From a virus, in the IMG/VR virus record IMGVR_UViG_3300017759_000039, positions 1 to 30,107 of that record: DNA of 30,107 nt. One strand, written 5' to 3'. Made by a program: the position numbers and the translations under genes. Below the pieces are notes generated by a model. It saw only the letters and a list, made by a program, of their open reading frames with translations. It ran no database searches and was not told the DNA's origin. Positions 1-23,324 of the stretch are shown here, in pieces; position 1 is the stretch's first letter, and every line of letters starts with the position of its first letter.

Positions 1-3000
1 GGGTCATTCTCTCTTGGATAAGAGTGGTTTGTAGAATCGCCATCCAGTGTGCAAGTAAATGTTACAAATCCATCTTGTACCTTAATTCTGCTACCATTCT
101 TAAGACCATGCTTCGCAGAAACAATGGTCATAATACCTGTTGCTGGATTATAACCAGCTGCAGTTGGTGTTAGTTGTGAAGGAGCAACAAACTTATGACT
201 GTAGTTACCACCAGTTACAACTTGTGCTCTGGTAATACCATTAGGTGTTGCAGATTCAAATTGATGTAATGTTGTGTTTGTAGATGGGACATTATCAAGT
301 ACTTGGACATCAAATGTGTCATCTGTGCAATTGGAGATTGTTATCCACTTACCACTTACAGGGTCACTACTTCTTGGATAAGAATGAGGACTACCTAAAC
401 TATCTTGTAAACATCTAAATGTTAAAGAGTTATTGTTGATCTTGATGCTCTCCCCATCATGGAATCCATGATTAGGAATTGTCAAGGTCATCATACCTGT
501 AGCTGGTAGATAGTTAGCATCAGTTACAGTATAAGTCTCAGTACCAGGAATGTAGGTATGAGCATACTGACCACCAGCAACTAATGCACCACTTACAGCA
601 CTTTGGAATACATGAGTTGTTGGGTTAGTAATTTGACCATTACCAACATCAAGTGTAACAGTACCAGTCTGATGATGAAGACTATTAGAAGCGAATGATA
701 CGAAGGTATGATCGTATACATCATTAATTGCAGATTTACCTACATGGACAGTTAATGAATTATTAGATACGTCACTAATAGGTAACCACTGTTTATATGT
801 TGGATCAGATCTTCTAGGATAAGCATGGTTAGTAGCGTTATTATCCTTAGTGCAGGTTAATGTAATTGCACCTTCATCAATCATTACAAAATCATTTGCA
901 TGCCATATTGCATTCATGGCAACGTTTGTTATAACATGAGTTGAAGTGTTAGAGATAGGTGCGTCACCATAAAGGTTACCAACTTGTATATCGAATGTAT
1001 TACTACCAATATTAAACGCCTTTCTCCACTTACCAGAAACAGGGTCAGTAGATCTTGGATATAGATGATCAGATGATTGTCCATCTAAATCGCAACGTAC
1101 GGTAAGTGTCTCATCCCTAATAAGGACCATATCCCCATTGTCAACTGGATGACCACTTGAAGTGACTCTTAATACACCTGTAGTAGGATAGAATGTGCAG
1201 TAGTCAGGTGAGATTTGATTCTGACTTGTCCAACCATTGAATATAGTATCGCCAGTAATTGTCATAGTACCAGCAGTAGGATTATAAGTTACTCCAGTTG
1301 GACTACGAGATTCCTTACCTACTTCCCATACAGGAATGTTAGTATCATAGAAATGATCCTTCTTATGAGTTATGCAGTTATTATCACAAGATACGAATGA
1401 ATGTTGAGTAGTATTTGTAGATGGAATAACATCAAGTACTTCAACACTGAATGTGTTAGCAGTAACATCTACAATAGGTACCCACTTTCCACTTATAGGA
1501 TCTGTAGATCTTGGATACTGGTGTCCAGTAGCATCTGCATCTTTCTTACATGTGAAGAGTAGTGAATTATCAGCAATCTTAATATGTGAGAATGGAAGGA
1601 ATCCATGATTGTTAATATAGAAGTTAATACGTCCAATAACAGGATCATAAGAAACGCTAGTTGGTGTATGAGTAGTAACAGCAGCACGAGGATATGAGTG
1701 GTTGCTTGAGTTACCATCAGCAGCACACTTGAATGTTAAACCGTTATCCTTAATTCTTACACTATCACCAGCATGTCTAACACAACCAGTAACAGATGTT
1801 GAGTAAGTATGGTTATAGATTCCACCAGAGATGAATGATGCTCTCTTAACACTGTTAGGATTAGCACTCTTAAATGTGTGTAGAGTTGTGTTACTCTGAG
1901 GAATTGTTGTTAATACTTGGACATCAAAACTCTGCTCAGTTACGTTAGATACTGTTAACCATTTTCCTGATGATGGATCAGATGCTCTAGGGTAAGTATG
2001 ATCAGTTGCATGATTATCCATTGCACATGTAAATGTCAATGCATTATCATCAATCTTAATCTTATCTCCATTCTCGAATCCATGACCATTAATGGTTAGG
2101 TTCATAACACCTGTTGTTGGGTTATAAACGATAGTGCTTGGAGTGTAACCTGGATGTGGGACAAAGATATGATCTGTAGTATCTGAAGATGCACCTACAT
2201 CAAGAGTAATTGTGCCATCCTTCTTAGTGATTCCACCAGTGCTACCCTGCACGAATGTATGAGTAGTAGTGTTAGTTGAAGGAGCGTAACTTAATACTTG
2301 GACATCGAATGTATAGAGACCTACATTAGATACTGTGATCCATCTATTAGCATATGGGTCACCAGATCTAGGATATGCATGGTTTGTACCATTGTTATCT
2401 TCTAAGCAGGTGAATGTTACTGCATTTTCTTTAAACTTAACTTGATCACCATTGCTCATTCCATGAGCAGAATCACAAGCAACAGTCATAATACCTGTTG
2501 TAGGATTATATGAAGTACCTGTAGTTGCAGTTAAAGGTGATCCATCATGTATGATTGGGCATGGCTTGTTATAGAATGGGTCAGCACCACCATTACCAAC
2601 ATAATTTGATCCAGTTGATCTAGGATAAGCATGTGGTGATTGATGAGCATCTAAGAAGCAAGTAAATGTTATTGCTTCTTTTGCTAACATAATATTCTTT
2701 CCAGAAGATAGATTATGATCACCAATGGTTAGTTTTAAATGACCTGTTAGAGGTGCAAACTCACCAGCAGTTGCTAAGAATGGAATTTGTGGAGTACGTC
2801 CAACATATACATCAAACTCATCTTTAGATACATTTCTAATATCCATCCACTTATCACTCATTGGATCTGTGGCTCTTGGATATGCATGGACTGAAGAATT
2901 TTGGTCCATATCACAGGTGAAACTTACTCCACCGTCAGCAACCTTAACGTAATCTCCAGCAGAGAATCCGTGGTTAGTAACCTTCAATCTCATTAATCCA

Positions 3001-4330: not shown

Positions 4331-7300
4331 TATTAATTGAAGCACTCTCACCGTTAACTAAAGATCCACCACCAATCGCATATCCAGCGAAATTAGAAGA
4401 AGCAAATATTCCACCACCACCTGTTAAACCAGTATAGTTAGCACCAGGAGTTGATGCTTCGCCAATAGGTGTGCCGTCAATCCAAAGTTTTACTCTACCA
4501 CTACCAGTAGTAATATTACCACCAATACGAATCTCCCATACTAGCTCGTGATCACCATCATCAAAGTATGCAGATAGACCACTGATTTGTAGGTCAAGCA
4601 TTGCAAGACCATTATCATTATGGTTTGATCCACCACTGTAAGAGTTATTACCATCACCAGCTCTTAATCTTAAATATGTTCCACTATCTCTAATACCTAA
4701 CCAAGAACCAGATGTTGAATCACCTGCTTCAAATAAACAGCAATCTATTGGTGAAGAAGGTAGTTTTGTAACACAACGGAATACTGCATCTTCAGAAGTT
4801 ACAATTCCAGTGCCACTATCAGTTGTAGAAATCTTATCTTCACCAGCAATGAATGATCTAGTTACAAGACTATTAGGTTGTCCAGTAATAATACCAGTAT
4901 CAGCAACAGAATTGAATAGTGAATTGTTAGGTCTTGGGACAGCATCATAGAATCTTTGATCAATATTATGTCCAGCGTTATTTGTAATAACCTGGCCTTT
5001 CATTGCACGAAGAGCAAATTCTTTTGCCTTATTCATGATCCAGATAGTCTCAGCAGACTGAGCAGCAACATGATCTAACGCACCATTATAAGTGGTATAG
5101 AATTCAGCAGAATACTGCATCCAGTTGTTACCACCATACTTAAGGTTAAACGCTAATGATCTTAAGATATCAGTAACGTCATGCACACAGTTAGCAGGGC
5201 CACCTGGGATGAGTAAGTTGGGGAATTGGACTAATCCAGCAGCAACTGCTTGCTCTGCGATATATCTAATATTACCATCAATAGCATCACCACATTTCTG
5301 ATACATTTCCTCACGTGGGTTTTGCTCATATGATTGTACTGGTGTTGTCTGTAGATCAGTACCTTCAATATAATCTCTACCAAATGCATTACGCATTGTC
5401 ATTGTCATGATATCTCTCAATATCTTGACTACTGTGATAGATGCTTCCCACTCACCCTCAATATGCTTAAGAGAGTTATTTTCTGTCTCAACATATAATG
5501 CAGCAGCATCATATGTCTTCTCGTTACAATCAAAGCGAAGGTCATGTACCGCTGCCTCAATCATATCAAGTACGTCATCTTCACAATTGACTGCTCCACC
5601 TGGAATCTGTAGATTCTCAAACTTGGAGAGGTCATTCATTATTGCTACGCATTCCTTAGAAATAATCTTTCTATTATCCCAGATTACATCAGCAGCATCA
5701 AGATATCTGTCATTAGAGTTTCTACCAGTTGGACCTTGAGGATATGCCTCAGTGTCAATTACTATAGTCTCATCTCTATACGAAGATCTTGAAGTATATA
5801 AAGGAGTATGATACTCTTCTTGGACATATGAAGGTGCACTAGCTCCTAACTCAGATGAAGCTTCACCTGGAGATAGTAACAAGTTATTAATTGCCTTGAG
5901 GCAAAGCATCTTACAATGCTCAAATGCATCAAGCATTGGATTTAATTCATTCTCAACGTGAATGATATTCTCCTGAGTATCAAGATACTTATCAATAACT
6001 GCTTCAGTCTGATATGTACCACCTGTAGCAAGGTCAGCAATTATAGCAGGAAGTATGAAGTCTTTAATATCTCTTTCACAATATGGTTGTCCATATCCAG
6101 GCATCTCAAGGAAGTCAAATGTGATACCATCGATATCCTTCTCATACTTATTCTGAATAAATCCAGCAACTTCTTCTGCGATATAATCTCTATTCTTCCA
6201 AAGTTGATAACCACCTTCTCTGAATCTCTGATCCATAGGAGCAACAACCTTAAGTAAGTTAGATCCTAATTCTGTGATCTCATCAGTAGTATTACTTGAA
6301 GCAGGAGATGAGAAGTTATTAGGTATTCTCAATCTAGTGCTATACTCACCACTTAGATCAGTACTTGTTGTTGTAACTACTTCATTAACAATCTTGAATA
6401 CTTCATTCCAAGTATAAAGAGACTGTAGAATCTCAGCAGCGATGTGGTCTAATTTACCACTAGCAGTTAGATAAGTCCTTGCAGTATAGATTGTATGGAA
6501 ATCTCCACCTTCTCTAAGGTCTTTAATTAGAGCACCAAGGATGTAATCTTTAGTATCTCTTACACAAAGGTTAGTACCACCATATATGTTATTACCAGGA
6601 TCATCACCACGAATAGTGAAGTCTGGGAATGCAACCTTCATTCTACCGACTGCTTCTTCTGCAATCCAAGCACCGTTAAGGTCAATTATATCAGCACATC
6701 TCTTCTGCTCTGCCCTACCAGTATCAACGTCTTCTACAATGATATCTCTATCTGCATAATCAATAGACTTAGCAGTTGCAGATGAAGAATTCTGACCACA
6801 GAATGTAGCATAACAATCAGTAGTAGAGGAAACAAATGGTGCTTCACCATCTAGACCAGCAACAATAGTGTCAAGAGTATAATCAATTGTATTAGGTGAA
6901 GTGAAGTTTGCTTGACGATCACCTACTCCTTTCTTAACAACAAAGTTATCAATATGACCATTCCAACCATTTGCTAGGTTAAAGTCTGATCCAACTTTTA
7001 GTCCACCATATAGGTAATCGTTAGTATCAACGTAGTTAGATCCAACTTGTGATCCATTTACGAATGCCTGTGTAACACCACTTGATCTACAGACTGAAAT
7101 ATGATACCAAGTACCAGTAGTCGCAAATACATCTGTACTAAGGATGGTATTGGTCGTGCCGTTATATACCTTTAATTTCTGTCCATCCATCAAGATATTC
7201 AAACCTTGAGCAGCAGATAGTCTTCTAAAGTCTACAAGTACTTGTGTGCCTACATTAGCACCAGGACGGATCCATCCTTCAATTGTGAAGTCTCCAGTGC

Positions 7301-10300
7301 CAAATTCAAAATCTTTACTCTCATTAAAGACTATTTGACCGTTACTTGGAATTAAGATCGATTTATTTCCCTGTAACTCAGCTTTCTTGATTATTACACT
7401 TTGAGAGCAATTTGTGTTTGTAAGAGTGGAATTAGTTAGATATTCGCCATTTTGGAATGTACCAGTAATTGGTCCAGCAAATAACCACTTAAGACCAGAA
7501 TTAACTCCAATTGCACTGAATACAGCACCAGAGGTAATACCCTTAATTTGATCGTTAGTAATGAATAATCCAGTTGACTTATCCTTGAATGCAAGTTTTG
7601 TAGTCCTTACAGTTTCATTAGCAACAAATGTGCCGTCAGAAACAAGTGCAAGGTTATTAATGTTGGTTAAGTTACCAGAAGTCATTGCAGTTGTTGCAAG
7701 ACCAGCTAAAGTGTCAACATAAGATTTAACGTTAGCACAGTTGTTAAGACCCTGATTATTACCAGATGCATAGTTTGCATCGTAAGTTTGAGCAGGAGCA
7801 ACACCACCAGAGTAAGTTGTAGGATCATTAAGGTTATAACCAGCAGTATTGAGTTCCTTCCAATACATCAAGTTATTAATCGCCTGATACATTAATGTCT
7901 TCGCAGAGTTGAATGCAAAGACTGCTTCTGTCTCTTCTCCAACAATACCGTTAGTTAGAGGTACACCAGCAGCATCGAAGAATTTTTTGGTAAATTCAAC
8001 GATATTATAGTTACCACCTTGACCAACGTCTTCAGCAATAGCATCAATCATGTATCCAAGGTCACGACGGCACTTCTCTTGATGAGGTGAATATGATCCT
8101 TCTGATTCATCAGGAAGCTCAGTTAGAGAAGAAATATTCAATGCTTCGTCTATAAACTCCCAAAGTGTTGAAAGTGTAGACTGTACGTCTGAGCAGTTCT
8201 CAGAATCGGTATTGGAGGCATTGGATCCAGCAGTACCGTAAGGATCATTAGGTGAAGGGTCAGCAGTGATTGTAAGGTCTTGATAAGCAACCCAAGAGTC
8301 TCCAGAGTTAACAGCGTTTATTGTACCTGAATAACCGTTAGTAATAGCAACTAAACAACGATCTTTAGCCTTTTCATATGCAAATCGTGTTTCAGCAGCT
8401 TGTGCATTAACATAAGTTAGATTACCGTTAGTATCGAAGAATTGTTGAATAAACTTACGAGAATAGCGGTTTCCACCTGAATATGCGTCAATAGAGATAG
8501 CATCAACAAATAATCCAATATCTCTCTTACATTTGTCATCTGAAGGAATAGAAGACCCAGGATACTGAGTTTTCATGTCATCGAAAGCCATTCCGATGAT
8601 AAGTGCTCTATTCTTCTGAATAAACCTGTAAGCGTCCTTATAACGACTCCAAGAGTTAGTAATAATGTCAGATGGGAAATAGTAGTCTTCAAACTCAACA
8701 GCAATGCTTGCTTCAGCGAAATCGATGATTTCTTGCTTATTATTAGCAATATTGCGTTTTCCATCTAAGAATCTGTTTGCAGCGATTCCATGGAAGGCAG
8801 AAACTGGATTTCCGTAAATAACCTTCTTATTTCTGATAACTTCGCCTTCTGTAAGCACACCACCAGTAAGTTGAGAATATGTAATCTCAGTAGTCCTAAC
8901 TTCTTCAAAATCGAGGAAATCAGCATTAATTCTTTCAGCAGAGTTATTAAGCTCAGTAGGAGTAATGGAAGATTGTGAAATGTCGTCTAGAATGACATTA
9001 GGGTTAGTTAGAGAAACTAAACGCTCAAATAGTAATCCAAAGAAGGTAGATCCTTTGTTAATGATTAATTCATCAACAGGGTCACCAGTTACAGGATCTG
9101 TATAAGGTGCGATGTATGTAATCTGGCCTGCAATCTTAGATGAGGCAGAATAGATGTACTCATTAAGTCTAAGGTCAAATATTCCAGTTTCAAATCTAGG
9201 AGTACCTGAAGTCTTACTTACAACAAGACGGTCAGTAATAACACCTTCAGTAGTGATATTAGTCTCTTCAATATAAGCAGTGTCACCTTCTAGGTTAGTA
9301 ACTGCTTCACCGAATTCAAATATAGTCTCTGAGTTAACTAGGGTAACAGATTCTACTAATGCAGCGAAGATTTCTCCTCTTACAATTTGCTCATTAAGAT
9401 CAAACGTACCACCAACTTGATTAATGACATCTAGATGATTAGTACCTGAATCAATAACTGTAGCAACAACATCTGTAGTTTCACCTTGGATCTGTTGTCC
9501 TATTGATGGGAAAATACCATAGTTTGCAGTACCACCAGATTGGTAAAGTGCAATTCTGTAGATAGGTGTAGGAGTAACTCCTAAGATTCTATAGTTAACT
9601 TTAGAAGGTGGTTTAGGTGGCTCAGCAAATACTATGTTACCACCAACGATTGTGAATGATTCACCAGGAGACTGGATAACACCGTTAAGTGTAATCATCA
9701 ACTGGTCTTGCTTAACGATGACTTGCTCATTCTCAACAGTAACTGGGAATTGCTTATCAATACCATTAAACTGATCTGAGATATCATCTAGTTTCTTAAC
9801 AATAGAAGTTAAGATTTCCTCAGAAGAAGTCAAACGCTTCTTACGGAAGAGAACCTCAGTATTGTTATAATCGGTGTATATTGGTTGTGCAGCACCGAAT
9901 GATGTAATCTGGTTTACATTACTATAGTTTTGTATATTAACTTTCTTCGTAAATTCTGTACCAATCTTACGACCAGATACGTCCTTACCACCAGTCAGTT
10001 GTAACTGACCAAACATGTTGAAACCAGCAGGGTGGTTATTTTCTAATACTTGTGCTTTCCATTCTGTGATAGGAATCTCAGACTTAACAACATATGAGAA
10101 GTTCTGATAGAAGAAACTATCCTGTATCTTCTGTACAATCTCAGAAGGCTTACCAACGTCATCAATAAATCGGCCTGGTGTCTTCGTTAGGGAGCCGATA
10201 TTCAGCACACCACGAGCAATAGAGAAGTTATCGATAATACCAGATGCCTTAGATATCTCACCCTGTACTCTCTCACCTTCTGCCCAGTCACCAGTGTAAT

Positions 10301-13300: not shown

Positions 13301-16300
13301 ATGCTATATCTGTATACTTGGTAGTATCAGTTAAAGTGTAACTATCTCTCTTAGAATGAAGTCTATCAAACTTAATTAATACGGAATCTGAATTACTTGT
13401 AGTAACAGGAATCTCTTCACCAGGTGCAGAGTATGCAGTATTATAAGGAGCGATATTGTCTATTACAAGATCATCGATATTACCAATGAAACAGTTAGCA
13501 GATGATGATCCACTATACTTACCAGCAACACCTATGTTATTAACACTAATATCTGACGTACTCTGGAAGTTAGCAACTAAGTTACCATTCAAGAATAACT
13601 CATATTGATAAAGACCTAGTGACTCTTCTCTCTTCTGGAAGGTAACATGTACCCACTGAGCACTAGCGAATGTAGTCCAGTTAACAGCAGTAGCAGATGT
13701 TGCTACTTGTACTGAGTTTACATAAAGGACTGCTTTCTCATAGTTTGCACTATTCTGATCACCATCCATTTCAACCTGTATACTATCACCAGCAACAGGA
13801 ATAACATCAAATAGAAGTGGTTTATGGTTTGTAGCATGAGCAGTGGTATTCATTGCCATCCATACTCTGAAACTCCACTCCTTATCGGTCATTCCGTAAG
13901 AAGCAAGTTTAACAGGAGAAGGAGCACTTAACTTAAGTGATCCATTACCAAACTTATAAACTGCATCATCAAAAGTAGAATCAGGTACTGACGAGAACGT
14001 CATTGTTGCTAAATTCTGCTTAGTGAAGTCGTAATCTAGATCATCAGTATCATTGAAACGATATGATGCTATTTGATCAGACTGTTGTCTATCAAGTACT
14101 AGGATCGGGTCACCAGAGTTGTCTAATGTATGTGTCTTAGCTCTAAAACCGATATTTACAGTATCATCAATCTTAGTCTCTTTAATTACTGTGCCGTCAT
14201 ACTTCAGATAATGAATAACTGAGTATCTTTGGTTTTGTGCTTCTATTACATCAGTAACAAGTGAATAGTTACCAAATACATCTACATTAATACCAGCATG
14301 ATTGATTGAATCAATTGCACCACTAACGGTAACTGTCTTCTGCCATTCCCACTGAGTATTAGCGGTTGCAATTGGGAATTTGCTTATTTGTACCCTATCA
14401 TACTTAGAAAGGACACTATTGTAAACATCCCAAACTAAGATGCAATCACCATATTCATCAACAGTGAATTTAGGATTTCTTACATATCCACCTAGAGTTG
14501 GAATCTGTCTAATGTATTCAATTTCAAGGTTTGCACCGTCATACCAGAATACACCAAAGATACAATCATCATTATCATCGTTAACACCAACAAAGAAGAA
14601 TCTGTCATCAGATATCCACTTAATTTGATTGATCATCTCTGAATCATCAGCAGATGCAATCTTTCTCTTCTCTACAAGGTCACCGTCCAGATTACACTGG
14701 ATGATCCACATATCATTAGGATCAGGTGAATTACTGTCTGTATAACCTGCAAGATAGATACGACCTTCCTGGTCTAATGCTAGAGAGGTGATCCAATCTC
14801 TTCTTGTGGTACCACTGATACCAGCAATTGCTTTCTGCCATAGTAAGATACCATCAGGAGCATTGGCATTATTGAATCCAGACTCATACTTACCTAACCA
14901 AATGTCAGGGTTGTAGTTAGCATTATTAGGATCGTACGTTTGACCAACGATATAGATGATGTCATTCTCTGCTGAAGCATCAATATGCATCTTAATAAAT
15001 TCTGCCTTCTTAGTACCTGAGTTAAGAGGTAGTAAGTTTCTCTCCCAAACTTTCTGGCCTAAGTCATCAAATTTGACGATAATTCCTGCTTGGTCACCGT
15101 CAGTCTCAAGGATGCTACCACAAATATAAGTGTAACGCTCTATAGTAGTTACCATGTCATGTATGGTAACGATACCAGCTGCTTCAAGATACTCGGTAAT
15201 CCAATAACGAGTCTTCTTGTATTGCTGAGGATGTGATACCCTTATCTGAGGAGGATTATCAGTATCGTATCCATTACCAGAGTTAATAATATTAACTTTA
15301 TTAATTTGTCCAGTATTCTCAAGTACCAACTGAAGTGAAGCATCCTGACCAGCAGGTGTTATCAATTCAAATGTTGGTGGGATGTCATTGTTATATCCAG
15401 TACCTGCTTGAGTAACTGAAATACTCTCAACACCTGTTACCACCTTAACCTTAAAGGTCTTCTGGGTATTATCGATAACAGGACGTGAGTTTATAATTAT
15501 CTCATCTTGTTGTCTTAATTCATGTCCTATATCTGTAGTAATAACACCATAAGGACGGTCACCAATGATTTCCTTCTGGTAACCAATAATATTCTGTCCT
15601 TTAACAGATTCAATAATAGCAGATGCACCGAATCCACCAGTACCTTCATTATCGAAGAATATAGTGTCATCTACCTGATATGATTCACCTGGGTTCTCAA
15701 TAACGAATCCATCAATCTGTGCATTCTCAAACTGAGTAGTTGTTTCTACTTCAATATCAACTCTAGACTCAGCAGATACTCTTGGGAAGTAATCATAAAT
15801 CTGTAGAGTTGCCTCTTCAGACATCTCTAGTAATTCTTGTTGCTCATTAGCATCAATCAGACCGTCATTGTTACTATCCTGAATTTCAAAGATAATAGGA
15901 TATCCTTCTATCTCAGTAGTGAATATATCAGCAGTCTGGTTTGGTTGACGATCAATATCAATGTCAACATCAGTATATGGATCTCTATAACGGACAACAC
16001 CATCAGGGATATTCTCTTGTGTTGCTGCCTGAGTAAAGTTCCAAGCATCAGGAAGTGAGTTAAACTGTGGTCCTAGAATATAAGGGAATTGTGCAAGACC
16101 TGCATCACTAGCATCAATAGTAATGAAGTATGCATATGTACCACCAGGATACTCAGGTGTCTTACAGAAACGACCATTATACTGGTCTAAGTCACCAGAC
16201 TGGAAGTCATAGAAATAGTCGTCTACAAAAGTACCAGCAGCATATGTTGCTATAGGAGGACCATCTACTCTAGAAGGGTTAGGATTGGTTACTTCATCAT

Positions 16301-19300
16301 ATACAACGTTTTCTTTTTGTTTGTATGACGTACGCATCCTTCTGATACCACTATTCTGATCAGTAGGATCAATGTATCCATAAGGACCATAAATTGGGTT
16401 ACCATCAAACGCCCAACCAATAACAGGTGAGTGCTCGAAGTTAGATGCTAATTCTTGGAATTGCTGAGTGACAGGGTTTAAGAATACATTATCACCAACA
16501 ACATATCTTAATTCTTTAGGATCTGATAGGTGAGCATATTCACCACCAAACTGGTTGTTATATCCAGTGAATACATAACCTCTTGCGAAGTCATATTTGT
16601 TACTCTCTACTCCTAATTCATATTCTAAGTTTCTATTCCACTGATAGACTGTAGGTGCAAATGACGCTAATTGACCCACTGCTTCGAGTCTAACAGTTGT
16701 TAAACCTTGGGTATATCCAATACCCTTGTTGGTAATAGTTACACCTAAAACACGTCCTTTGTCTTCTCCAATAGTTCCGATAGTTGCTTGTGCAATAGCA
16801 CCAAATCCATCACCATTGATGATTACGTTAGGTGCAGTAGTATAGGAATTACCAGAGTTGATAATAGCGATAGAAACGATTCTACCATTCAATACGATTG
16901 GTTGTGCTAGAGCATTCTCACCAGAGTTAACTTTAATTTCTGGAAGTGAAGTATAACCACTACCAAAGTTGGTAACAGTAACACTTTGAATTGGACCACG
17001 GACACTGGCAGTTGCTTCTGCTCCTATTCCTCCACCACCTGTTATAGAAACACTAGGTTGTGAAGTATATCCTGTACCTGGTTGCTCAACTAGAATACGA
17101 GTAACTCGACCACCAGTGATAACTGCTTGTGCAGTAGCACCAATACCACCGCCACCTACGATTGATACTAGAGGTGACTCAGTATATCCAGTACCTTCAG
17201 TTGTAACATTAAAACTATCAAGACTACCATTTACAATAACTTCTGCAGCTGCATTTGATCCTCCACCACCTTCTATCTCTACATTAGGTTTCGCACCAGC
17301 ATCATAACCTTCACCATTGTTAGTTACAGTGATATTAGTTAAAGGACCATACTGTACGTAATCTCTTGACTTGTAAGACCAAATAGAAACACCATTAACC
17401 CAAGATCCAATTGGAGTACCTGGATTGATAGTTTGACGCTCTGATATAGTTTGGACTGTCCTAGGGAATCTTAATAGCTTCCTTTGGTTGCCTGGGATCA
17501 ATGCTGACCCTGTAAATGGACCTATCTTGTAGTTTGGTAATCCAGATGCAGCAACATAGACATATTGGTCATTAAAGAAAGAGTTTTGGATATTAGTCGT
17601 AAATTCACTAATAACCTTGTTAATAGAGGTTACATCTGACTTACCTCTGTTAAGGTCAACCGATAATAGGATATTACCTGCTGGAATGATCTCAGTTGGT
17701 GTATTGATCCTATATGAGAATTCAAACTCGTTAATACGTGATGTAACGGTAAATGTGCCGTTATAGACAACTGGGTTTGCACCGTAGATCGTAACTTGGT
17801 CAGAAACCAATAATCCGTGTGGGTTACCGCAAACTACAGTCGCAGTCTGGTTATTAACACCACCAGGAGTAATACTGGTTACTTGGATGAGTTTTTTAAC
17901 ATTATACAACCAAGATTGCAATCTTAGCTCTTCAGCAGTGGATCCAAGGTTTGCAACCTTCAATTTGTCTCCACCGAGGTAGTAACTACCTGTATTGTTA
18001 AGAACAGTCGTTCCTGCTTCTGCAATACCAAGAACTCTCAGTTTACACTCATTTGCAGTACCAAAGTTGGTATAGATGTAGATATCGGACTGGATTATGG
18101 TACCAGGATCCCAATCTTCAACAATTCCGTTTTTAGACCTAGTACACTCGATGAACTGGTTTAGGGACTTCTCTTTATACTGAACTTGCTCTTGATCATT
18201 GATTCTGATGGTACCATTCCTTTCGGGCCATCCTATCGTCGAGTCAACCGTAATGATTTGCCCAGTTGTCGTAAGAGGCTCAACGAGACGTGTTTTGTAA
18301 GGAATAATGAAATTCCCAACCAATGTTTCTTCCGAGATAGCCAATTCATAGATTGTATCGGTACCTTCGATGATTGTGATGACATTTTCGATTAAAGCTG
18401 ATGCATCCGTTACGCTAGTGTCAACAGCGTCGGCATATTGGTTAATTTGTGCGTCTAATAGGTTTACAGGGTCACCTTCTATCAATTCTGCTCTAAGAAT
18501 GGTGTCTACAACCCAAGTAGCATAAGATGGACTAATAATCTCATCTTTTGGATAATAAAGGTCAACATCTTGTCCAAATAAGATTTTGAAGAGATATTGA
18601 GTCGCTAATTTAGTACCTTTTGAAACATAGAAGTCACTAATGTTTTTAATGACCTGTACAGGGTTAACTTCGCTAAAATCAATGTCAATAGTAGGCAAAT
18701 ACTGCCTTCTAAACTTATCAAAGACTTCCTTGATGAAAAGGGTGTCTAAATTAATAACTGTGCCACCAGCAAGGTGATTTGATTGCCTTAAAGCTGCTTC
18801 TCCAGCATATATCTCATTATGGAGGTTATCATACTCTACAGGACCAGAAACGCCTCTGGAGCACCCTAGGAAGGCACTAGGAGAGTAACCTGATCCTTTC
18901 TCAATGATATCAAAACCAGTAACTTGGTCAAAACCAACATCTACAGATGCTCTAGCAGATCTTGGATCAGCAATGTAGATTTTAGGTGGGAATTCAACAG
19001 AATATCCAGTACCAAAGTTGGTAATGTTGATATCAGTGATTTCACCGTTGAAAATGGTGGCAGCAGCAGTAGCACCAGTACCGCCTATTAGTTCTCCGTA
19101 TCCATCCTTCCTATCATCAACAATATAGACAGATGGAGCATCAGTATAACCACTACCACCTGTTAACATCTCAATATTGGTAACAGATCCAGATGCAACA
19201 GTTACATCAAGGACTTGAGCACCAATTGGGTCAATTATCTTTACTCTAGGTGGAGTTACATAACCCCTACCTCTATTAACTACTTGTACTTCGTATACTT

Positions 19301-20744
19301 GACCATCTTGGTTGATCTTTGTTACTGCCTGTGCATTAATGCCACCAGCAGGTGCAGGATCCATGTATACAATAGGTGGATTGCTATATCCACTACCCAT
19401 TGTAAGTACTTCAATACTTCCTAGGTTAACACGACCCTCTCCATCAATAGTAGGAGCACCATTAGTCGCACCAGCAGGGTTTTTAAAGGATATTGCAGGA
19501 ATGAAGTTATATCCACTACCACTATTAGTGATAGAAAGAGTTTCGACCATTCCAGTCTCATCATTAACTGTCAGTGCCAGTTCTGCTATAGTACCATTGC
19601 TATCATTAGGAACAACGACTACAGGAATAGGTGGGTTGTATGAAGAATAACCCTGACCACCGTCAAGAAGGTTAACATCCTTAATACCACCAATTAATGA
19701 CTTAGCAGTAGCGTTAATACCTTCCTTATGACTAATAGTAACCTTTGGGTTAAAGTCTAGACGATACTTACTACCACCAACTTTAGGAATAAGTGATTGT
19801 ATCTGACCTAGGTCGTCAACCTGAGCAATAGCCTTGGCTCCAGACCCATATGAAGGAGCAACATATTCAACAGACCTAATATGAATAAGATCTGCAGCTC
19901 CGATGGCATTCTTAAAGACAATCTTGTCTTGGAAGACTGTAAAGTCCTCATATGGTACTTGTAACTTGCCATTCTTGTTAATTATTAATCCTATCTCAGA
20001 AGTTGGAGTATATGAAGCTCCATCAATTCTTAATGGGTATATTTTTGTATTCTGCCACTCTTGCCAAGGTATAGTATCTGCAACTTTGATCTCCTGATCA
20101 GCATAACCAACCAAATATGTAACTCTAGTAAATTCTGAATCATCTCCACCAGTTCTGTCACGAGGTGGTTCGTTAAAGACAAGATTTAGACCATTAATAC
20201 TATAATCAGTGCCAGGCACTAACATAGTGTTGTACGTAATGATAACAAGGTGCTCTGCACTAGGAGGTGCTACAGGAGTACCCAAGAAACTCATTGGGAA
20301 GACAGTTTCAACACCATCGAACAGTGGAAATGGGTTTTCTAACTGTTGCTTCTTCTTATTAAACTGCGGAAACGAAATACCTGGAGTAATGATGACATCA
20401 GGACCACGAGTTACATCCTCGTAGTAGATGACTTCATTATCGATCATTATAGATCCATTTTGAGCCTGGAATCCATTAATAGACTCAATTTCGATCTTAG
20501 GATCGCTTACACCAATATCCTTAAGTAAACTCGTTGAACTAGATAACTCTTCTGACGTATAGTTGTCAAGATCTAGGTACCTTAACAGATTGTTAAGGAT
20601 ATCATAAGGTCTACCAGTTTTCTCCTGAGATTTATAATACTCAAACAAGAAGTTGACAAGTTGTCTGTCTTCTTGCCGAATAAAATCAGGTAACTGACTT
20701 TCGACTCTATCAGAGACGTTGATATTCTTTGTTATCGGTGACAT
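1..20744 (-). CDS. Giant multidomain baseplate/tail adhesin-like protein (3' end outside window)
   Basis: One reading frame runs from ATG at 20744 to the left edge with no stop: at least 6914 codons, roughly 760 kDa. The last in-window residues (NHSYPRENDP) are still inside a repeat, so the frame is intact at the edge. It starts 4 nt after the gp6 stop, the position of gp7 in T4 (1032 aa). Approximate domain order by residue: 1-70 tail/baseplate-type N-terminus; 355-630 seven GSGY repeats; 660-735 helical segment with DFYVSKGT and LFKILFGQDV, as in tail-protein-I-like baseplate proteins; 1138-1350 six GSGY repeats; 1390-1535 YHYH-like; 1623-1634 EF-hand loop; 1850-2220 beta-propeller-like; 2225-2435 LamG-like; 2659-2789 two W/Y carbohydrate-binding-like modules; 3125-3325 GSGY repeats; 3990-5255 helical Cys modules enclosing a LamG-like domain (4460-4610); 5295-5460 LamG-like; 5470 onward YPR repeats. 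I infer a baseplate-anchored host-recognition or scaffold protein. Function is not proven. Confidence 0.9.
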   Translation of the reverse strand, partial: MSPITKNINVSDRVESQLPDFIRQEDRQLVNFLFEYYKSQEKTGRPYDILNNLLRYLDLDNYTSEELSSSTSLLKDIGVSDPKIEIESINGFQAQNGSIMIDNEVIYYEDVTRGPDVIITPGISFPQFNKKKQQLENPFPLFDGVETVFPMSFLGTPVAPPSAEHLVIITYNTMLVPGTDYSINGLNLVFNEPPRDRTGGDDSEFTRVTYLVGYADQEIKVADTIPWQEWQNTKIYPLRIDGASYTPTSEIGLIINKNGKLQVPYEDFTVFQDKIVFKNAIGAADLIHIRSVEYVAPSYGSGAKAIAQVDDLGQIQSLIPKVGGSKYRLDFNPKVTISHKEGINATAKSLIGGIKDVNLLDGGQGYSSYNPPIPVVVVPNDSNGTIAELALTVNDETGMVETLSITNSGSGYNFIPAISFKNPAGATNGAPTIDGEGRVNLGSIEVLTMGSGYSNPPIVYMDPAPAGGINAQAVTKINQDGQVYEVQVVNRGRGYVTPPRVKIIDPIGAQVLDVTVASGSVTNIEMLTGGSGYTDAPSVYIVDDRKDGYGELIGGTGATAAATIFNGEITDINITNFGTGYSVEFPPKIYIADPRSARASVDVGFDQVTGFDIIEKGSGYSPSAFLGCSRGVSGPVEYDNLHNEIYAGEAALRQSNHLAGGTVINLDTLFIKEVFDKFRRQYLPTIDIDFSEVNPVQVIKNISDFYVSKGTKLATQYLFKILFGQDVDLYYPKDEIISPSYATWVVDTILRAELIEGDPVNLLDAQINQYADAVDTSVTDASALIENVITIIEGTDTIYELAISEETLVGNFIIPYKTRLVEPLTTTGQIITVDSTIGWPERNGTIRINDQEQVQYKEKSLNQFIECTRSKNGIVEDWDPGTIIQSDIYIYTNFGTANECKLRVLGIAEAGTTVLNNTGSYYLGGDKLKVANLGSTAEELRLQSWLYNVKKLIQVTSITPGGVNNQTATVVCGNPHGLLVSDQVTIYGANPVVYNGTFTVTSRINEFEFSYRINTPTEIIPAGNILLSVDLNRGKSDVTSINKVISEFTTNIQNSFFNDQYVYVAASGLPNYKIGPFTGSALIPGNQRKLLRFPRTVQTISERQTINPGTPIGSWVNGVSIWSYKSRDYVQYGPLTNITVTNNGEGYDAGAKPNVEIEGGGGSNAAAEVIVNGSLDSFNVTTEGTGYTESPLVSIVGGGGIGATAQAVITGGRVTRILVEQPGTGYTSQPSVSITGGGGIGAEATASVRGPIQSVTVTNFGSGYTSLPEIKVNSGENALAQPIVLNGRIVSIAIINSGNSYTTAPNVIINGDGFGAIAQATIGTIGEDKGRVLGVTITNKGIGYTQGLTTVRLEAVGQLASFAPTVYQWNRNLEYELGVESNKYDFARGYVFTGYNNQFGGEYAHLSDPKELRYVVGDNVFLNPVTQQFQELASNFEHSPVIGWAFDGNPIYGPYGYIDPTDQNSGIRRMRTSYKQKENVVYDEVTNPNPSRVDGPPIATYAAGTFVDDYFYDFQSGDLDQYNGRFCKTPEYPGGTYAYFITIDASDAGLAQFPYILGPQFNSLPDAWNFTQAATQENIPDGVVRYRDPYTDVDIDIDRQPNQTADIFTTEIEGYPIIFEIQDSNNDGLIDANEQQELLEMSEEATLQIYDYFPRVSAESRVDIEVETTTQFENAQIDGFVIENPGESYQVDDTIFFDNEGTGGFGASAIIESVKGQNIIGYQKEIIGDRPYGVITTDIGHELRQQDEIIINSRPVIDNTQKTFKVKVVTGVESISVTQAGTGYNNDIPPTFELITPAGQDASLQLVLENTGQINKVNIINSGNGYDTDNPPQIRVSHPQQYKKTRYWITEYLEAAGIVTIHDMVTTIERYTYICGSILETDGDQAGIIVKFDDLGQKVWERNLLPLNSGTKKAEFIKMHIDASAENDIIYIVGQTYDPNNANYNPDIWLGKYESGFNNANAPDGILLWQKAIAGISGTTRRDWITSLALDQEGRIYLAGYTDSNSPDPNDMWIIQCNLDGDLVEKRKIASADDSEMINQIKWISDDRFFFVGVNDDNDDCIFGVFWYDGANLEIEYIRQIPTLGGYVRNPKFTVDEYGDCILVWDVYNSVLSKYDRVQISKFPIATANTQWEWQKTVTVSGAIDSINHAGINVDVFGNYSLVTDVIEAQNQRYSVIHYLKYDGTVIKETKIDDTVNIGFRAKTHTLDNSGDPILVLDRQQSDQIASYRFNDTDDLDYDFTKQNLATMTFSSVPDSTFDDAVYKFGNGSLKLSAPSPVKLASYGMTDKEWSFRVWMAMNTTAHATNHKPLLFDVIPVAGDSIQVEMDGDQNSANYEKAVLYVNSVQVATSATAVNWTTFASAQWVHVTFQKREESLGLYQYELFLNGNLVANFQSTSDISVNNIGVAGKYSGSSSANCFIGNIDDLVIDNIAPYNTAYSAPGEEIPVTTSNSDSVLIKFDRLHSKRDSYTLTDTTKYTDIAFTDIETTTTWADLGLSALSAWTPGAGGLQILDMSQVIATLNPSTYTFTTNKAEYATKTSTIPSPLGKKLTISADVISKFYMRDALYQKIDNVLEFTFSQDLKLTKGTILQQFNDAGVTQAYGTIVNVPEGTLLAPGYGNKYEVGKIYGTFNNTDRYRTVAGDVNQIEGTYFDTIEEENPWAAGTVYALGDTVYNGKRIYQAQGAGTSGTIAPVHTAGVASDGVINWAFLDAAGKFTIDLTQHPYPRPQWTGLDMPEWLPDRLYVVGQRVWYGLNIYQVAVGGGGVSGNTAPIHSTGDDTDGGVTWTHVSTEEAISVYTRLMDYDQGNNYMVQIMEVQPGSVYIPGDVVSINSGNIVLAEDEKSTEIVGFESVKKIRVTARLEKDIIRSSTVRTNYVYCTSNSAHNFGAGNIIFTEGFSTAQFNGSFFIDQIIGSREFTFGIRAVADSDPAFNNNAIAGVNIYAKHPTLDFTRNHQYVFDLSDVSNFGYYLSFSQDNQYKLEYSFNNIERSGTPGIPTSPAPFVKFSVLGDVTNISYYFDPSRTGADSPVGDNSFIDVIKTPFDGTFRISEVPTDTSFKFQLDREPERMNAEVGNDEFDQPYSYYSTTSLRAVGPINTIQLVSPGGFYQKLPIINDIASFRQIEKVVVNDGGTEYAPGVYYDIPILGDGEGGKATITVEVDDTIGSGTITGVSVVDPGKGYTTASIDIDAITGILGATLAGSGGSVTVVIPSEGSGASVFLTGTNIGKIKRLKNNEFGFGYSHDYTLKPEITFPVNLQLFNTSILSQIKITDPGSGYTSTPAVVIEGGGGSGAEALAIIKNNRLSEITIKNPGSGYSSEPTVTLKSEFNYVVNLDLNYLQFNFPHGITTGAEVQFRSDDIGSTVGELPKPSTAGLTSLVAGQTYYAIAGEASGLEPDQLRFGLTKASAQGGSYVTFLTQGSGRQTLLTEVFGGRATAVVETSRFLEGETVYQGSSIETQTAIGKVSTNTGWQLGPKILKIVDYTGDWAEGERVQGEISKASGIIDNFSIARGVLNIGSLTKTPGRFIDDVGKPSEIVQKIQDSFFYQNFSYVVKSEIPITEWKAQVLENNHPAGFNMFGQLQLTGGKDVSGRKIGTEFTKKVNIQNYSNVNQITSFGAAQPIYTDYNNTEVLFRKKRLTSSEEILTSIVKKLDDISDQFNGIDKQFPVTVENEQVIVKQDQLMITLNGVIQSPGESFTIVGGNIVFAEPPKPPSKVNYRILGVTPTPIYRIALYQSGGTANYGIFPSIGQQIQGETTDVVATVIDSGTNHLDVINQVGGTFDLNEQIVRGEIFAALVESVTLVNSETIFEFGEAVTNLEGDTAYIEETNITTEGVITDRLVVSKTSGTPRFETGIFDLRLNEYIYSASSKIAGQITYIAPYTDPVTGDPVDELIINKGSTFFGLLFERLVSLTNPNVILDDISQSSITPTELNNSAERINADFLDFEEVRTTEITYSQLTGGVLTEGEVIRNKKVIYGNPVSAFHGIAANRFLDGKRNIANNKQEIIDFAEASIAVEFEDYYFPSDIITNSWSRYKDAYRFIQKNRALIIGMAFDDMKTQYPGSSIPSDDKCKRDIGLFVDAISIDAYSGGNRYSRKFIQQFFDTNGNLTYVNAQAAETRFAYEKAKDRCLVAITNGYSGTINAVNSGDSWVAYQDLTITADPSPNDPYGTAGSNASNTDSENCSDVQSTLSTLWEFIDEALNISSLTELPDESEGSYSPHQEKCRRDLGYMIDAIAEDVGQGGNYNIVEFTKKFFDAAGVPLTNGIVGEETEAVFAFNSAKTLMYQAINNLMYWKELNTAGYNLNDPTTYSGGVAPAQTYDANYASGNNQGLNNCANVKSYVDTLAGLATTAMTSGNLTNINNLALVSDGTFVANETVRTTKLAFKDKSTGLFITNDQIKGITSGAVFSAIGVNSGLKWLFAGPITGTFQNGEYLTNSTLTNTNCSQSVIIKKAELQGNKSILIPSNGQIVFNESKDFEFGTGDFTIEGWIRPGANVGTQVLVDFRRLSAAQGLNILMDGQKLKVYNGTTNTILSTDVFATTGTWYHISVCRSSGVTQAFVNGSQVGSNYVDTNDYLYGGLKVGSDFNLANGWNGHIDNFVVKKGVGDRQANFTSPNTIDYTLDTIVAGLDGEAPFVSSTTDCYATFCGQNSSSATAKSIDYADRDIIVEDVDTGRAEQKRCADIIDLNGAWIAEEAVGRMKVAFPDFTIRGDDPGNNIYGGTNLCVRDTKDYILGALIKDLREGGDFHTIYTARTYLTASGKLDHIAAEILQSLYTWNEVFKIVNEVVTTTSTDLSGEYSTRLRIPNNFSSPASSNTTDEITELGSNLLKVVAPMDQRFREGGYQLWKNRDYIAEEVAGFIQNKYEKDIDGITFDFLEMPGYGQPYCERDIKDFILPAIIADLATGGTYQTEAVIDKYLDTQENIIHVENELNPMLDAFEHCKMLCLKAINNLLLSPGEASSELGASAPSYVQEEYHTPLYTSRSSYRDETIVIDTEAYPQGPTGRNSNDRYLDAADVIWDNRKIISKECVAIMNDLSKFENLQIPGGAVNCEDDVLDMIEAAVHDLRFDCNEKTYDAAALYVETENNSLKHIEGEWEASITVVKILRDIMTMTMRNAFGRDYIEGTDLQTTPVQSYEQNPREEMYQKCGDAIDGNIRYIAEQAVAAGLVQFPNLLIPGGPANCVHDVTDILRSLAFNLKYGGNNWMQYSAEFYTTYNGALDHVAAQSAETIWIMNKAKEFALRAMKGQVITNNAGHNIDQRFYDAVPRPNNSLFNSVADTGIITGQPNSLVTRSFIAGEDKISTTDSGTGIVTSEDAVFRCVTKLPSSPIDCCLFEAGDSTSGSWLGIRDSGTYLRLRAGDGNNSYSGGSNHNDNGLAMLDLQISGLSAYFDDGDHELVWEIRIGGNITTGSGRVKLWIDGTPIGEASTPGANYTGLTGGGGIFASSNFAGYAIGGGSLVNGESASINTFTINVGPAPKIEYDITHAAYDSSNGDMVMTVGSHNHTVGTFLSLATNSINFTCDQDNNASTHSYPRSGDPAGNAAVEVMAVGATAHTIDSASYNPENGSMSITLPNHGMSDSTLHTISDATYDPDTGLLVCQSTAHGFQTGDQVQIKNGSLIFTCAQDNHNTKHGYPRAKDPAGDAWMLVEQVTTNSFTVNVGQTPKIEYDVSGADYNQTDGELELEIGQHRFVGATHHVASHAEYTADKGLLKLTVGGHNLTKGEQIQIFDNSMTFTCSMDNYYSEHVYPRSSDPASEKWLDVVESDIPGGTFTVNVGVSPTVGWNPTAASFNSTTGQLELTVGSGHGLTTGTNIKIASQSLSFTCDMDDNKSIHSYPRHVDPIHNEPTPIVGVTNTTIVVNVGKTPEQQYNVSNATFTPADGKLVLTTDRKTTLRQSSEHSIAGATFDGQTGLMRLKVTNHGFSAGDYVKVADGGVSFTCDMDQNSSVHAYPRATDPMSDKWMDIRNVSKDEFDVYVGRTPQIPFLATAGEFAPLTGHLKLTIGDHNLSSGKNIMLAKEAITFTCFLDAHQSPHAYPRSTGSNYVGNGGADPFYNKPCPIIHDGSPLTATTGTSYNPTTGIMTVACDSAHGMSNGDQVKFKENAVTFTCLEDNNGTNHAYPRSGDPYANRWITVSNVGLYTFDVQVLSYAPSTNTTTHTFVQGSTGGITKKDGTITLDVGASSDTTDHIFVPHPGYTPSTIVYNPTTGVMNLTINGHGFENGDKIKIDDNALTFTCAMDNHATDHTYPRASDPSSGKWLTVSNVTEQSFDVQVLTTIPQSNTTLHTFKSANPNSVKRASFISGGIYNHTYSTSVTGCVRHAGDSVRIKDNGLTFKCAADGNSSNHSYPRAAVTTHTPTSVSYDPVIGRINFYINNHGFLPFSHIKIADNSLLFTCKKDADATGHQYPRSTDPISGKWVPIVDVTANTFSVEVLDVIPSTNTTQHSFVSCDNNCITHKKDHFYDTNIPVWEVGKESRSPTGVTYNPTAGTMTITGDTIFNGWTSQNQISPDYCTFYPTTGVLRVTSSGHPVDNGDMVLIRDETLTVRCDLDGQSSDHLYPRSTDPVSGKWRKAFNIGSNTFDIQVGNLYGDAPISNTSTHVITNVAMNAIWHANDFVMIDEGAITLTCTKDNNATNHAYPRRSDPTYKQWLPISDVSNNSLTVHVGKSAINDVYDHTFVSFASNSLHHQTGTVTLDVGNGQITNPTTHVFQSAVSGALVAGGQYAHTYIPGTETYTVTDANYLPATGMMTLTIPNHGFHDGESIKINNNSLTFRCLQDSLGSPHSYPRSSDPVSGKWITISNCTDDTFDVQVLDNVPSTNTTLHQFESATPNGITRAQVVTGGNYSHKFVAPSQLTPTAAGYNPATGIMTIVSAKHGLKNGSRIKVQDGFVTFTCTLDGDSTNHSYPREND
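4330..4860 (-). other. LamG-like beta-sandwich domain 3 of the giant protein
   Basis: This segment has the rhythm of a concanavalin/LamG-like sandwich: SWLGIRDSGTYLRLRAGDG, then HELVWEIRIGG, GRVKLWIDG and a glycine-rich closing strand. Such domains commonly bind glycans or serve as beta-sandwich spacers in phage adhesins. It sits between the helical Cys modules and the YPR array. The call is by pattern only and is weaker than for the LamG-like domain at 6915-7365. Confidence 0.5.
4960..8790 (-). repeat. Six helical Cys-containing modules in the giant protein
   Basis: Six copies of a predicted helical motif, C-x2-D-x3-[IL]-x-[AS]-[ILV]-x2-[DN]-[LA]-x2-G-G-[NTD], lie at about 8470-8541 (KCKRDIGLFVDAIS), 8009-8084 (KCRRDLGYMIDAIA), 6501-6569 (CVRDTKDYILGALI), 6018-6083 (CERDIKDFILPAII), 5524-5587 (CEDDVLDMIEAAVH; FDCN replaces GGN) and 5126-5191 (CVHDVTDILRSLAF). 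Four of them are paired with a second helical motif of the type A-D-x-I-x2-N-x3-I-A-E-E-A, at about 6651-6718, 6160-6210, 5630-5715 and 5240-5300, giving composite units of roughly 400-525 bp. I know of no named family for this module, although similar strings occur in T4-like cyanophage structural proteins as far as I recall. Confidence 0.75.
6915..7365 (-). other. LamG-like domain 2 of the giant protein
   Basis: The translation contains the classic Laminin-G-like signature: FEFGTGDFTIEGWIRPG, then GTWYHISVCRSSG, QAFVNGSQVG and a closing strand NGWNGHIDNFVVKKG. This matches the concanavalin-like Laminin_G_3 pattern (fT-x-E-W, W-x-H-[IV], [FY]-[VI]-[ND]-G, G-x-[IL]-D-[ND]-[FLV]). It is inserted between the second and third helical Cys modules. 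A glycan-binding or spacer role is inferred. Confidence 0.75.
10770..11370 (-). repeat. GSGY beta-repeat block 4 of the giant protein
   Basis: This block holds several copies of the short GSGY-type repeat: VVDPGKGYTTASIDI, ITDPGSGYTSTPAVVI, IKNPGSGYSSEPTVTL and a degenerate NDGGTEYAPG. Between them are glycine-rich strings such as EGGGGSGAEA. The unit looks like a repeated beta-strand, turn, beta-strand element that extends a fibrous shaft; this structural reading is inferred. Confidence 0.7.
12378..12770 (-). repeat. Two carbohydrate-binding-like W/Y modules
   Basis: Two related modules of about 50 residues. The first (12615-12770) reads NPWAAGTVYALGDTVYNGK, RIYQAQGAGTSGTIAPVH and DGVINWAF. 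The second (12378-12542) reads PEWLPDRLYVVGQRVWYG, NIYQVA, GNTAPIHSTG and GGVTWTHV. The W-x3-[TR]-x-Y-x2-G-[DQ]-x-V-x-[YN]-G-x2-Y-[QR] spacing resembles ChiC/CBM5/12-type chitin-binding modules and phage tail modules that end in DG-x-V-x-W. A degenerate HPYPRPQW lies between them, reminiscent of the C-terminal YPR motif. Glycan binding is inferred from family resemblance. Confidence 0.6.
13440..14070 (-). other. LamG-like domain 1 of the giant protein
   Basis: The segment begins ASYRFNDTDDL and continues FDDAVYKFGNGSLKLSA, WSFRVWMAMNTT, QWVHVTFQKRE, YELFLNGNLVANF and CFIGNIDDLVID. This order (strand, full-complement strand, W-x-F-x-W, WVHV, NG, G-x-IDD) matches Laminin_G_3-like sandwiches. 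It follows directly after the beta-propeller-like stretch. Confidence 0.7.
14085..15190 (-). other. Beta-propeller-like region of the giant protein
   Basis: Four or more blade-like repeats of the SBBP/Kelch style can be seen: YTYICGSILETDGDQAGIIV, KFDDLGQKVWERNL, IYIVGQTYDPN, LALDQEGRIYLAGYTD, NDMWIIQCNLDGDLVEKRKI, FFFVGVNDDNDDCIFGVFW and FTVDEYGDCILVWD. The pattern of a YLAG or YIVG strand followed by a D-x-W-x3-[KC]-x-[DN]-x-[DL]-G strand is typical of PF06739-like beta-propeller repeats. In phage tails such blades are possible receptor-binding surfaces (inference). Confidence 0.6.
15240..15700 (-). repeat. GSGY beta-repeat block 3 of the giant protein
   Basis: Three copies of the GSGY-type unit, IENPGESYQVDD, VTQAGTGYNNDIPPTFEL and IINSGNGYDTDNPPQIRV, sit between the EF-hand loop and the beta-propeller-like region. 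They are more diverged from one another than the copies in blocks 1 and 2. Confidence 0.65.
15843..15878 (-). other. Canonical EF-hand/dockerin-type calcium loop in the giant protein
   Basis: Residues 1623-1634 read DSNNDGLIDANE. This fits the 12-residue EF-hand loop at every key position: D1, N3, D5, G6, I8, D9 and E12. The residues after it (QQELLEMSEEA) look like an exiting helix. The preceding residues (PIIFEIQ) are strand-like, so this may be an isolated dockerin-like loop and not a full helix-loop-helix. Calcium binding is inferred. Confidence 0.8.
16140..16570 (-). other. YHYH-like domain of the giant protein
   Basis: The core GWAFDGNPIYGPYGY at 16374-16419 is the hallmark DG-x-PIYGPYGY string of the YHYH family (PF14240). 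It is preceded by FEHSPVI and followed by a CKTPEYPGGTYAYFIT segment that I associate with phage versions of the domain. The family has no firmly established biochemical role. Here the domain lies between GSGY block 2 and the EF-hand loop. Confidence 0.75.
16690..17340 (-). repeat. GSGY beta-repeat block 2 of the giant protein
   Basis: Six copies of about 35-40 residues each: VTNNGEGYDAG, VTTEGTGYTESPLVSI, VEQPGTGYTSQPSVSI, VTNFGSGYTSLPEIKV, IINSGNSYTTAPNVII and ITNKGIGYTQGL. Each is joined to the next by a glycine/alanine-rich linker such as GGGGIGAEA. This is the most regular GSGY block in the gene. Confidence 0.8.
18535..18760 (-). other. Tail-protein-like helical segment of the giant protein
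   Basis: The segment reads LFIKEVFDKFRRQYLPTID, VIKNISDFYVSKGTKLATQY and LFKILFGQDVDLYYPKDE. The DFY-x-SKGT, LF-x-LLFG and YYP signature is one I associate with baseplate proteins related to P2 gpI/T4 gp7. With the N-terminus (QLPDFIRQEDRQLVNFLFEY) it suggests that the baseplate-attachment part is split by the first GSGY block. The exact homology is inferred. Confidence 0.55.
18860..19690 (-). repeat. GSGY beta-repeat block 1 of the giant protein
   Basis: Seven copies of the GSGY unit in series: LLDGGQGYSSYNPP, ITNSGSGYNFIPAISF, VLTMGSGYSNPPIVYM, VVNRGRGYVTPPRVKI, MLTGGSGYTDAPSVYI, ITNFGTGYSVEFPPKIYI and IEKGSGYSPSAF. The consensus is [IV]-x-[NDT]-x-G-[ST]-G-Y-x3-P-x-[IV]. The same unit occurs in the 1357-aa protein at 24018-28091. 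Confidence 0.8.
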
Positions 20745-22849: not shown

Positions 22850-23263
22850 TTATGCTCTCTCTAGGAGAAAATCTACTGACTGTTGGACTTCCTGTCCTAC
22901 TATGGTATACTCTATGGCAACTTGGATAGAATTAATGTCTGAATCGTCTCTTAAATCTATTGAAGTTACCTCAATACGAGGTTCAAGTCTTTGAAGACAG
23001 TTATAAATTTCACCTTTCATGGAATCAACACTAAATGGATCCCATGGTTCAAATAATAGCTCTCTAACACGAGATCCTATCTCATCTTGAAAAGGTCTCT
23101 CACCATACATGGTGCAAATTAGGTTACGTACAGACTGTTTAATCGCATTTTCATTTCTAACCACGCCAAAATCGCCAGTAGAGGGATTGGAGTTAAGCGA
23201 AATCGCCAAATCCTTGAATCCTCTACTGACGTACTTCTCAGATCTGAATCTGTAGCTTGCCAT
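22850..23263 (-). CDS. 25: Baseplate wedge protein gp25
   Basis: The product is 137 aa, close to T4 gp25 (132 aa). gp25 binds gp6 in the wedge core and helps nucleate the sheath; the family (GPW/gp25) is lysozyme-named but structural. The signature is complete: NAIKQSVRNLICTMYGERPF followed by QDEIGSRVRELLFEPWDPF, then the C-terminal strand pair ending VDFLLERA. AGGA lies about 9 nt before the ATG and supports this start. It is preceded by a candidate late promoter and hairpin (23295-23324) and is the first gene of a gp25-gp6-giant gene unit. Confidence 0.96.
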   Translation of the reverse strand: MASYRFRSEKYVSRGFKDLAISLNSNPSTGDFGVVRNENAIKQSVRNLICTMYGERPFQDEIGSRVRELLFEPWDPFSVDSMKGEIYNCLQRLEPRIEVTSIDLRDDSDINSIQVAIEYTIVGQEVQQSVDFLLERA

Positions 23264-23275: not shown

Positions 23276-23293
23276 TTGAGATATTTATCTCAA
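23276..23293. repeat. Perfect 8-bp inverted repeat in the gp25 leader
   Basis: TTGAGATA and TATCTCAA flank a 2-nt centre, 13 bp upstream of the gp25 start codon and next to its Shine-Dalgarno-like AGGA. The minus strand here also reads GATAAATA, one mismatch from the T4 late-promoter consensus. It may be an operator-like palindrome, an mRNA hairpin or chance in AT-rich DNA. Confidence 0.45.
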
Positions 23294-23294
23294 T

Positions 23295-23324
23295 AAACCC
23301 TATTATCTTTTATTTATAGGGTTT
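23295..23324 (-). terminator. Stem-loop between the 45-aa gene and gp25
   Basis: AAACCCTAT (23295-23303) and ATAGGGTTT (23316-23324) form a perfect 9-bp stem with a 12-nt loop, starting 5 bp after the 45-aa gene's stop. It is positioned as a terminator, but the downstream minus-strand sequence (ATTGAGATAA) has no U-run, so it may be a weak terminator or an RNA processing or stability element. The late promoter lies within its loop and one arm. Confidence 0.5.
23311..23318 (-). promoter_or_regulatory. T4-type late promoter TATAAATA upstream of gp25
   Basis: The minus strand reads exactly TATAAATA, the single -10-like element recognised by the T4 gp55 late sigma factor. It lies 48 nt upstream of the gp25 ATG, a normal leader length. 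It would drive gp25, gp6 and the giant gene late in infection. Confidence 0.7.

Follow-up and report, generated by a model that had tools for sequence, protein, structure and literature searches.

A giant gene at the gp7 position of T4-like marine cyanophages and its variable array of YPR repeats

Introduction

What is encoded by a phage reading frame that opens directly after the baseplate gene gp6 and runs for more than 20 kb to the edge of its contig? The question is raised by a 30,107-nucleotide stretch of viral DNA (IMG/VR record IMGVR_UViG_3300017759_000039, positions 1 to 30,107), here called the window. The gene belongs to an already known family of giant gp7-position Kyanoviridae proteins that is functionally unstudied; our literature searches returned nothing on it beyond annotation and proteomics tables. 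Here we describe its extent, relatives, modules and repeats, and consider what the protein may do.

Results

A single coding frame follows gp6

The two genes ahead of the giant frame lie on the minus strand and encode baseplate components. The wedge subunit gene gp25 (22850..23263; PHROG 261, E 2e-48) precedes that of the wedge subunit gp6 (20749..22848; PHROG 219, E 1e-202, with Pfam Gp6 domains), and the giant frame opens 4 nt after gp6 on the same strand. Two late-promoter-like NATAAATA boxes (TATAAATA and GATAAATA) are located just upstream of gp25 at 23282..23318 (minus strand). Their motif is like the one that PMC2984593 gives for late promoters of cyanophages, and the name is used here by likeness only.

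The giant gp7-position structural gene occupies 3..20744 (minus strand), where the open reading frame listing and translation give 6,914 amino acids from an ATG with no stop. The window edge cuts the gene, whose total length we estimate at ~9,920 codons. In comparison with three relatives, no 500-codon bin has a dN/dS outside the range 0.04 to 0.47, and the frame is therefore coding throughout. The longest exact direct repeat measures 21 nt in the window part of the gene, which makes repeat-driven collapse or chimerism unlikely; for two complete orthologues the maxima are 25 and 28 nt. The original prediction of one phage frame of at least 6,914 codons directly after gp6 is borne out by the listing, the lack of stops, dN/dS and the orthologues described below.

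Elsewhere in the window, a 1,357-aa gene (24018-28091, minus strand) lies upstream of a PAAR gene. Its first 506 aa match PHROG 22792 (no known function), its C-terminal part shows a weak likeness to the baseplate-wedge PHROG 719, and related cyanophages have a gene of 800-1,400 aa at its place. A 131-aa frame at 28042-28437 (minus strand; PHROG 699, unknown) overlaps the start of this gene by 50 nt.

The complete gene in related contigs

The IMG/VR contig IMGVR_UViG_3300012953_000046 (G001) is 97.45% identical in nucleotide sequence across the 30.1 kb of the window and contains the complete giant gene at contig positions 10346-40114, encoding 9,922 aa (1,075 kDa). The end of the frame, originally described as still unseen, is indeed missing from the window copy and is now located through this contig; judging from so close a relative, the last ~3,000 codons are presumably present in the phage of the window as well. 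The protein had also been put at over six times the size of T4 gp7, which is right in direction and too low in ratio: the G001 orthologue is 9.6 times as long.

The complete gene is present in 14 IMG/VR contigs, namely G001, twelve with 9,458-9,914 aa and one with 7,476 aa, some of which resemble near-copies (G002/G008 and G004/G009 are equal in length and repeat positions). One further contig holds 9,400 aa of the gene, cut at the contig end. No complete orthologue has a broken frame. The gene, the largest that we found, makes up 15% of the 199-kb contig G002. The order gp25, gp6, giant gene, YHYH protein, gp9/10-like gene, X, gp8, long gene is common to phage P-TIM40, G001 and G002, and places the giant gene between gp6 and gp8-type genes, the position of gp7 in T4.

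Giant proteins at the gp7 position of isolated cyanophages

Orthologues follow gp6 in the isolates P-RSM6 (8,573 aa), P-TIM40 (7,351 aa), S-WAM1 (6,737 aa) and S-SZBM1 (6,619 aa). The S-SZBM1 protein (S-SZBM1_208, 'baseplate wedge initiator', YP_010656691.1) has the same position and is collinear with window residues 8-5265 at 54% identity in blastp, while those of S-WAM1, P-TIM40 and P-RSM6 are 57-61% identical from residue 8 to 3800-4372. More distant genes after gp6, of the kind named gp7 or virion structural protein in other Kyanoviridae, occur in P-SSM4 (7,312 aa, annotated gp7), P-SSM7 (7,124 aa), ACG-2014d (6,817 aa), P-RSM4 (6,603 aa), S-RIM8 (6,395 aa), S-RIM14 (6,198 aa) and P-HM2 (4,454 aa). 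The first six of these are 49-51% identical in the N-terminal 1,300 aa; all seven are shorter than the gene described here and have fewer units of the YPR repeat, which occupies a handful of places per record in those listed. Proteins of 6,198-8,573 aa are thus encoded at the gp7 position in 10 of the 11 isolated cyanophages sampled, P-HM2 being the exception, and the first 700 aa of the giant match 300 cyanophage records. Such size is found in this cyanophage group at large and is no peculiarity of the window contig, contrary to the rarity implied originally.

The two halves of the giant match PHROG 701 with 4,353 and 2,091 bits. The label of this family, 'head and packaging', clashes with the baseplate operon position and with the gp7-like segment described below, and for these reasons we judge it misleading. 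VrlC, which replaces gp7 according to PMC7029224, was considered as an identity for the giant and rejected: in P-HM2 it has a gene of its own, located after gp8. Besides the gene after gp6, another P-HM2 gene bears the annotation gp7 (PHM2_094, locus L310, 29739-32294).

S-SZBM1_208 was detected in CsCl-purified virions (PMC9146016), where Table 1 gives 724.20 kDa, 6,619 aa, 71 peptides and 13.5% coverage. With an orthologue found in purified virions, the giant is of a kind already known. S-SZBM1 appears without long tail fibres in TEM, and long tail fibres or their genes are reported absent in S-SZBM1, S-WAM1, P-RSM6 and P-TIM40 (PMC9146016).

The N-terminal region is gp7-like in a short segment

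An AlphaFold2 model of residues 1-945 (mean pLDDT 77.5) comprises helices at 10-56 (20577..20717; low pLDDT), a beta-rich module at 70-650, helices at 666-722 and a beta domain at 748-909 (18018..18503), all encoded on the minus strand. The beta-rich module (18795..20537) lies between the two helical segments, contains GxGY motifs and is conserved, with pLDDT mostly near 90. The second helical segment, residues 666-730 (18555..18749, minus strand), carries the motif DFYxSKGT...YLFKILFGxxV, which is like DFYSTKG...LFK.L...EV in residues 711-759 of T4 gp7 (1,032 aa), a protein that also follows gp6. In hhalign, residues 703-730 match residues 731-759 of the T4 gp7 family over 29 columns (probability 90.9%, E 1.2e-6); against T4 alone the E-value is 3e-5. 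The N-terminal part of the giant and T4 gp7 both match PHROGs 26741, 17744 and 2885. The match at 703-730 fits anchoring in the wedge.

This was the one gp7 match that profile comparison gave in the N-terminal part, and most of T4 gp7 is unrecognisable in the giant, to which it compares at about one tenth of the size. The N-terminal helices are at the right place for the T4 gp7 helical domain, but the alignment of residues 14-54 with T4 gp7 650-691 is not significant (hhalign, E 0.48), and we rejected this assignment. The beta domain at 748-909 stands at the place of gp7 domain V by order only. The Pfam domains Gp7_helical, Gp7_5th and Gp7_6th (domains V and VI for the latter two) are all found in T4 gp7 and none in the giant. 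A Foldseek search of the PDB with the 1-945 model gave as best match 9f4a, the gp7 chain of a Klebsiella T4-like phage (E 2.7e-4, TM 0.07, probability 0.15), and the T4 gp7 entries 5iv5 and 5hx2 were within the top 14 with low superposition scores. Because the helices align non-significantly, superposition is low and the Pfam gp7 domains are absent, we call the giant gp7-like for its location and for one short core segment, and do not regard it as a demonstrated gp7 homologue along its whole length. The succession of modules in the model resembles that of gp7, where a helical domain is followed by a helix and domain V, except that a large beta module is inserted.

Modules of the body

Four modules were recognized further along the chain, all on the minus strand: a YHYH-family module at residues 1400-1545 (16110..16547; PF14240, E 4.2e-27), a beta-propeller (SBBP) repeat at 1978-2005 (14730..14813; PF06739, E 1.3e-4, above the cut-off), a module like a cyanophage tailspike receptor-binding domain and CBM 5/12 at 2657-2710 (12615..12776; PDB 7eea, E 1.8e-7; PF02839, E 0.0016, below the cut-off) and a concanavalin/LamG-like module at 4478-4603 (6936..7313; PF13385, E 9.4e-13). 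The likeness to 7eea, from the tailspike of a short-tailed cyanophage, extends over this 54-residue stretch, and nothing else is common to the two proteins. NCBIfam and Rfam searches gave no matches. The mosaic with glycan-binding-like modules that had been proposed is thereby recovered as the LamG/concanavalin and tailspike-RBD/CBM-like modules and a YHYH module minus its histidines.

The YHYH domain is a predicted Zn hydrolase (PMC7824862). Despite the PF14240 match, the motif reads YAYF in every giant orthologue in which it was located, and because the histidines are lost an active hydrolase is unlikely. Directly after the giant gene, G001 encodes a 530-aa YHYH-family protein (locus L121, 6123-7712, plus strand) that keeps the YHYH motif. 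A division of labour between the two proteins is possible.

Protein length tracks the number of tandem YPR repeats

From residue 5485 onward, a domain of ~95 aa recurs about every 108 aa. The window contains the first 14 units (3..4292, minus strand) and G001 all 30 (residues 5485-8657). Among 436 units, a Cys and the YPR motif are invariant, two Asp are conserved at 0.99 and a His at 0.89. Units within one protein share only ~36% mean identity, against 53-84% when the units of G001 and G002 are compared position by position; the array therefore predates the split of these two lineages.

The number of units differs between relatives, with none in S-SZBM1 and S-WAM1, five in P-TIM40, 18 in P-RSM6 and about 30 in the form described here. 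Over 19 sequences with 0-30 copies, many of them related and equivalent to about six independent points, protein length equals 6,708 + 108 x the number of units (r 0.998). In this clade size correlates with YPR copy number, consistent with lineages altering length by gaining and losing repeats, and the 30-unit form of 9,922 aa and >1 MDa is the longest among those found. The 7,476-aa protein (contig G015, loci L137 and L138) has only seven units, at two sites (residues ~4391 and ~5788).

Among phage records the YPR repeat is cyanophage-specific: 325 contain it, and each of these is named cyanophage, Synechococcus or Prochlorococcus phage, or marine virus. It is found mostly in structural genes of the giant type and also in annotated tail-fibre genes. 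A model of two units (pLDDT 87) matched no PDB structure at E <= 0.001, and its best named matches among predicted viral structures were cyanophage proteins. A weak PDB match, 7onc, pointed to a designed beta-propeller, which the structure search did not support.

At the DNA level, most of the giant gene differs between the window and G001 by 0.2-4%, as against 11% at residues 4801-5000 and 12-20% at 6401-6914. The latter region (window 3-1544) lies inside the array of two phages that are 96-99% alike elsewhere. Its divergence suggests local recombination; the pattern fits local exchange within the peripheral part, and is alone no proof of receptor selection.

Discussion

We propose that the giant is probably the baseplate wedge protein that occupies the gp7 position in this T4-like marine cyanophage (Kyanoviridae), drawn out into a long repeat-built arm. 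The conserved N-terminal region with its gp7-like helical segment would tie the chain into the wedge beside gp6, as the short homologous segment, its place in the operon and the detection of an orthologue in virions suggest. The remainder, a conserved multi-module body of ~5,300 residues, the tandem array of ~108-aa YPR units and a conserved C-terminus of ~1,280 aa, would most likely form an arm at the periphery, equipped with sugar-binding-type modules, that helps in host contact. Some of the tasks of long tail fibres, which the four closest isolates are reported to lack, may have passed to this arm. If the protein were present in six copies, as for T4 gp7, it alone would contribute ~6.5 MDa per virion. 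The giant had originally been pictured as a very long, baseplate-anchored adhesin. Its length is confirmed and its anchoring is supported by operon position, the short gp7 segment and proteomics of the orthologue; the adhesin role is our best inference, drawn from the resemblance of modules to LamG, tailspike receptor-binding and CBM domains.

A frame of this size in a metagenomic contig that is cut by its own edge could in principle be an artefact, with several genes fused through chimerism or a missed stop. We consider this extremely improbable, since single collinear frames occur in isolates and in 14 complete contigs, dN/dS is below 0.5 throughout and the longest exact repeat is 21 nt. The chimeric join or in-frame stop for which a check had been advised is rejected on the same grounds, and for the family an artefact is effectively refuted. 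The gene might also be translated as one chain that is then cut into several mature proteins, as its size, its modular architecture and the peptide coverage of just 13.5% for the S-SZBM1 orthologue would allow. Cleavage seems unlikely to us: no protease-site evidence was found, 71 peptides were assigned to the orthologue as one entry of 724 kDa, and the frame is intact in every complete orthologue.

The most serious competitor to a host-contacting arm is a structural role, in which the chain would be the scaffold for a baseplate of enlarged, for example double-layered, build and its repeats would be spacers or stabilisers that bind no host. A double-layered baseplate has been proposed for these phages (PMC7029224), and an invariant Cys/Asp/YPR/Asp core is common to the YPR units, which are under purifying selection. 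Against it stand the LamG and tailspike-RBD-like modules, the presence of the YPR repeat in genes annotated as tail fibres as well, and the finding that near-identical phages diverge most in the array and at residues 4801-5000. We therefore hold the scaffold to be rather doubtful and prefer the wedge protein with a peripheral arm. A further-reaching idea is that YPR is a beta module peculiar to cyanophages, with a fold new relative to the PDB and a conserved Cys-Asp-His-YPR-Asp site, and that up to ~30 copies in series give a >1 MDa wedge protein an arm of adjustable length, this protein taking the place of long tail fibres in recognising the host. This we put forward tentatively, as a possibility.

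T4-like cyanophages are widespread in the ocean, and in the literature searched their giant gene is without a studied function. The defined repeat and the size relation, in which every unit adds 108 aa to a 6,708-aa core, provide a concrete handle on it, through short constructs and through comparison of copy number with host range.
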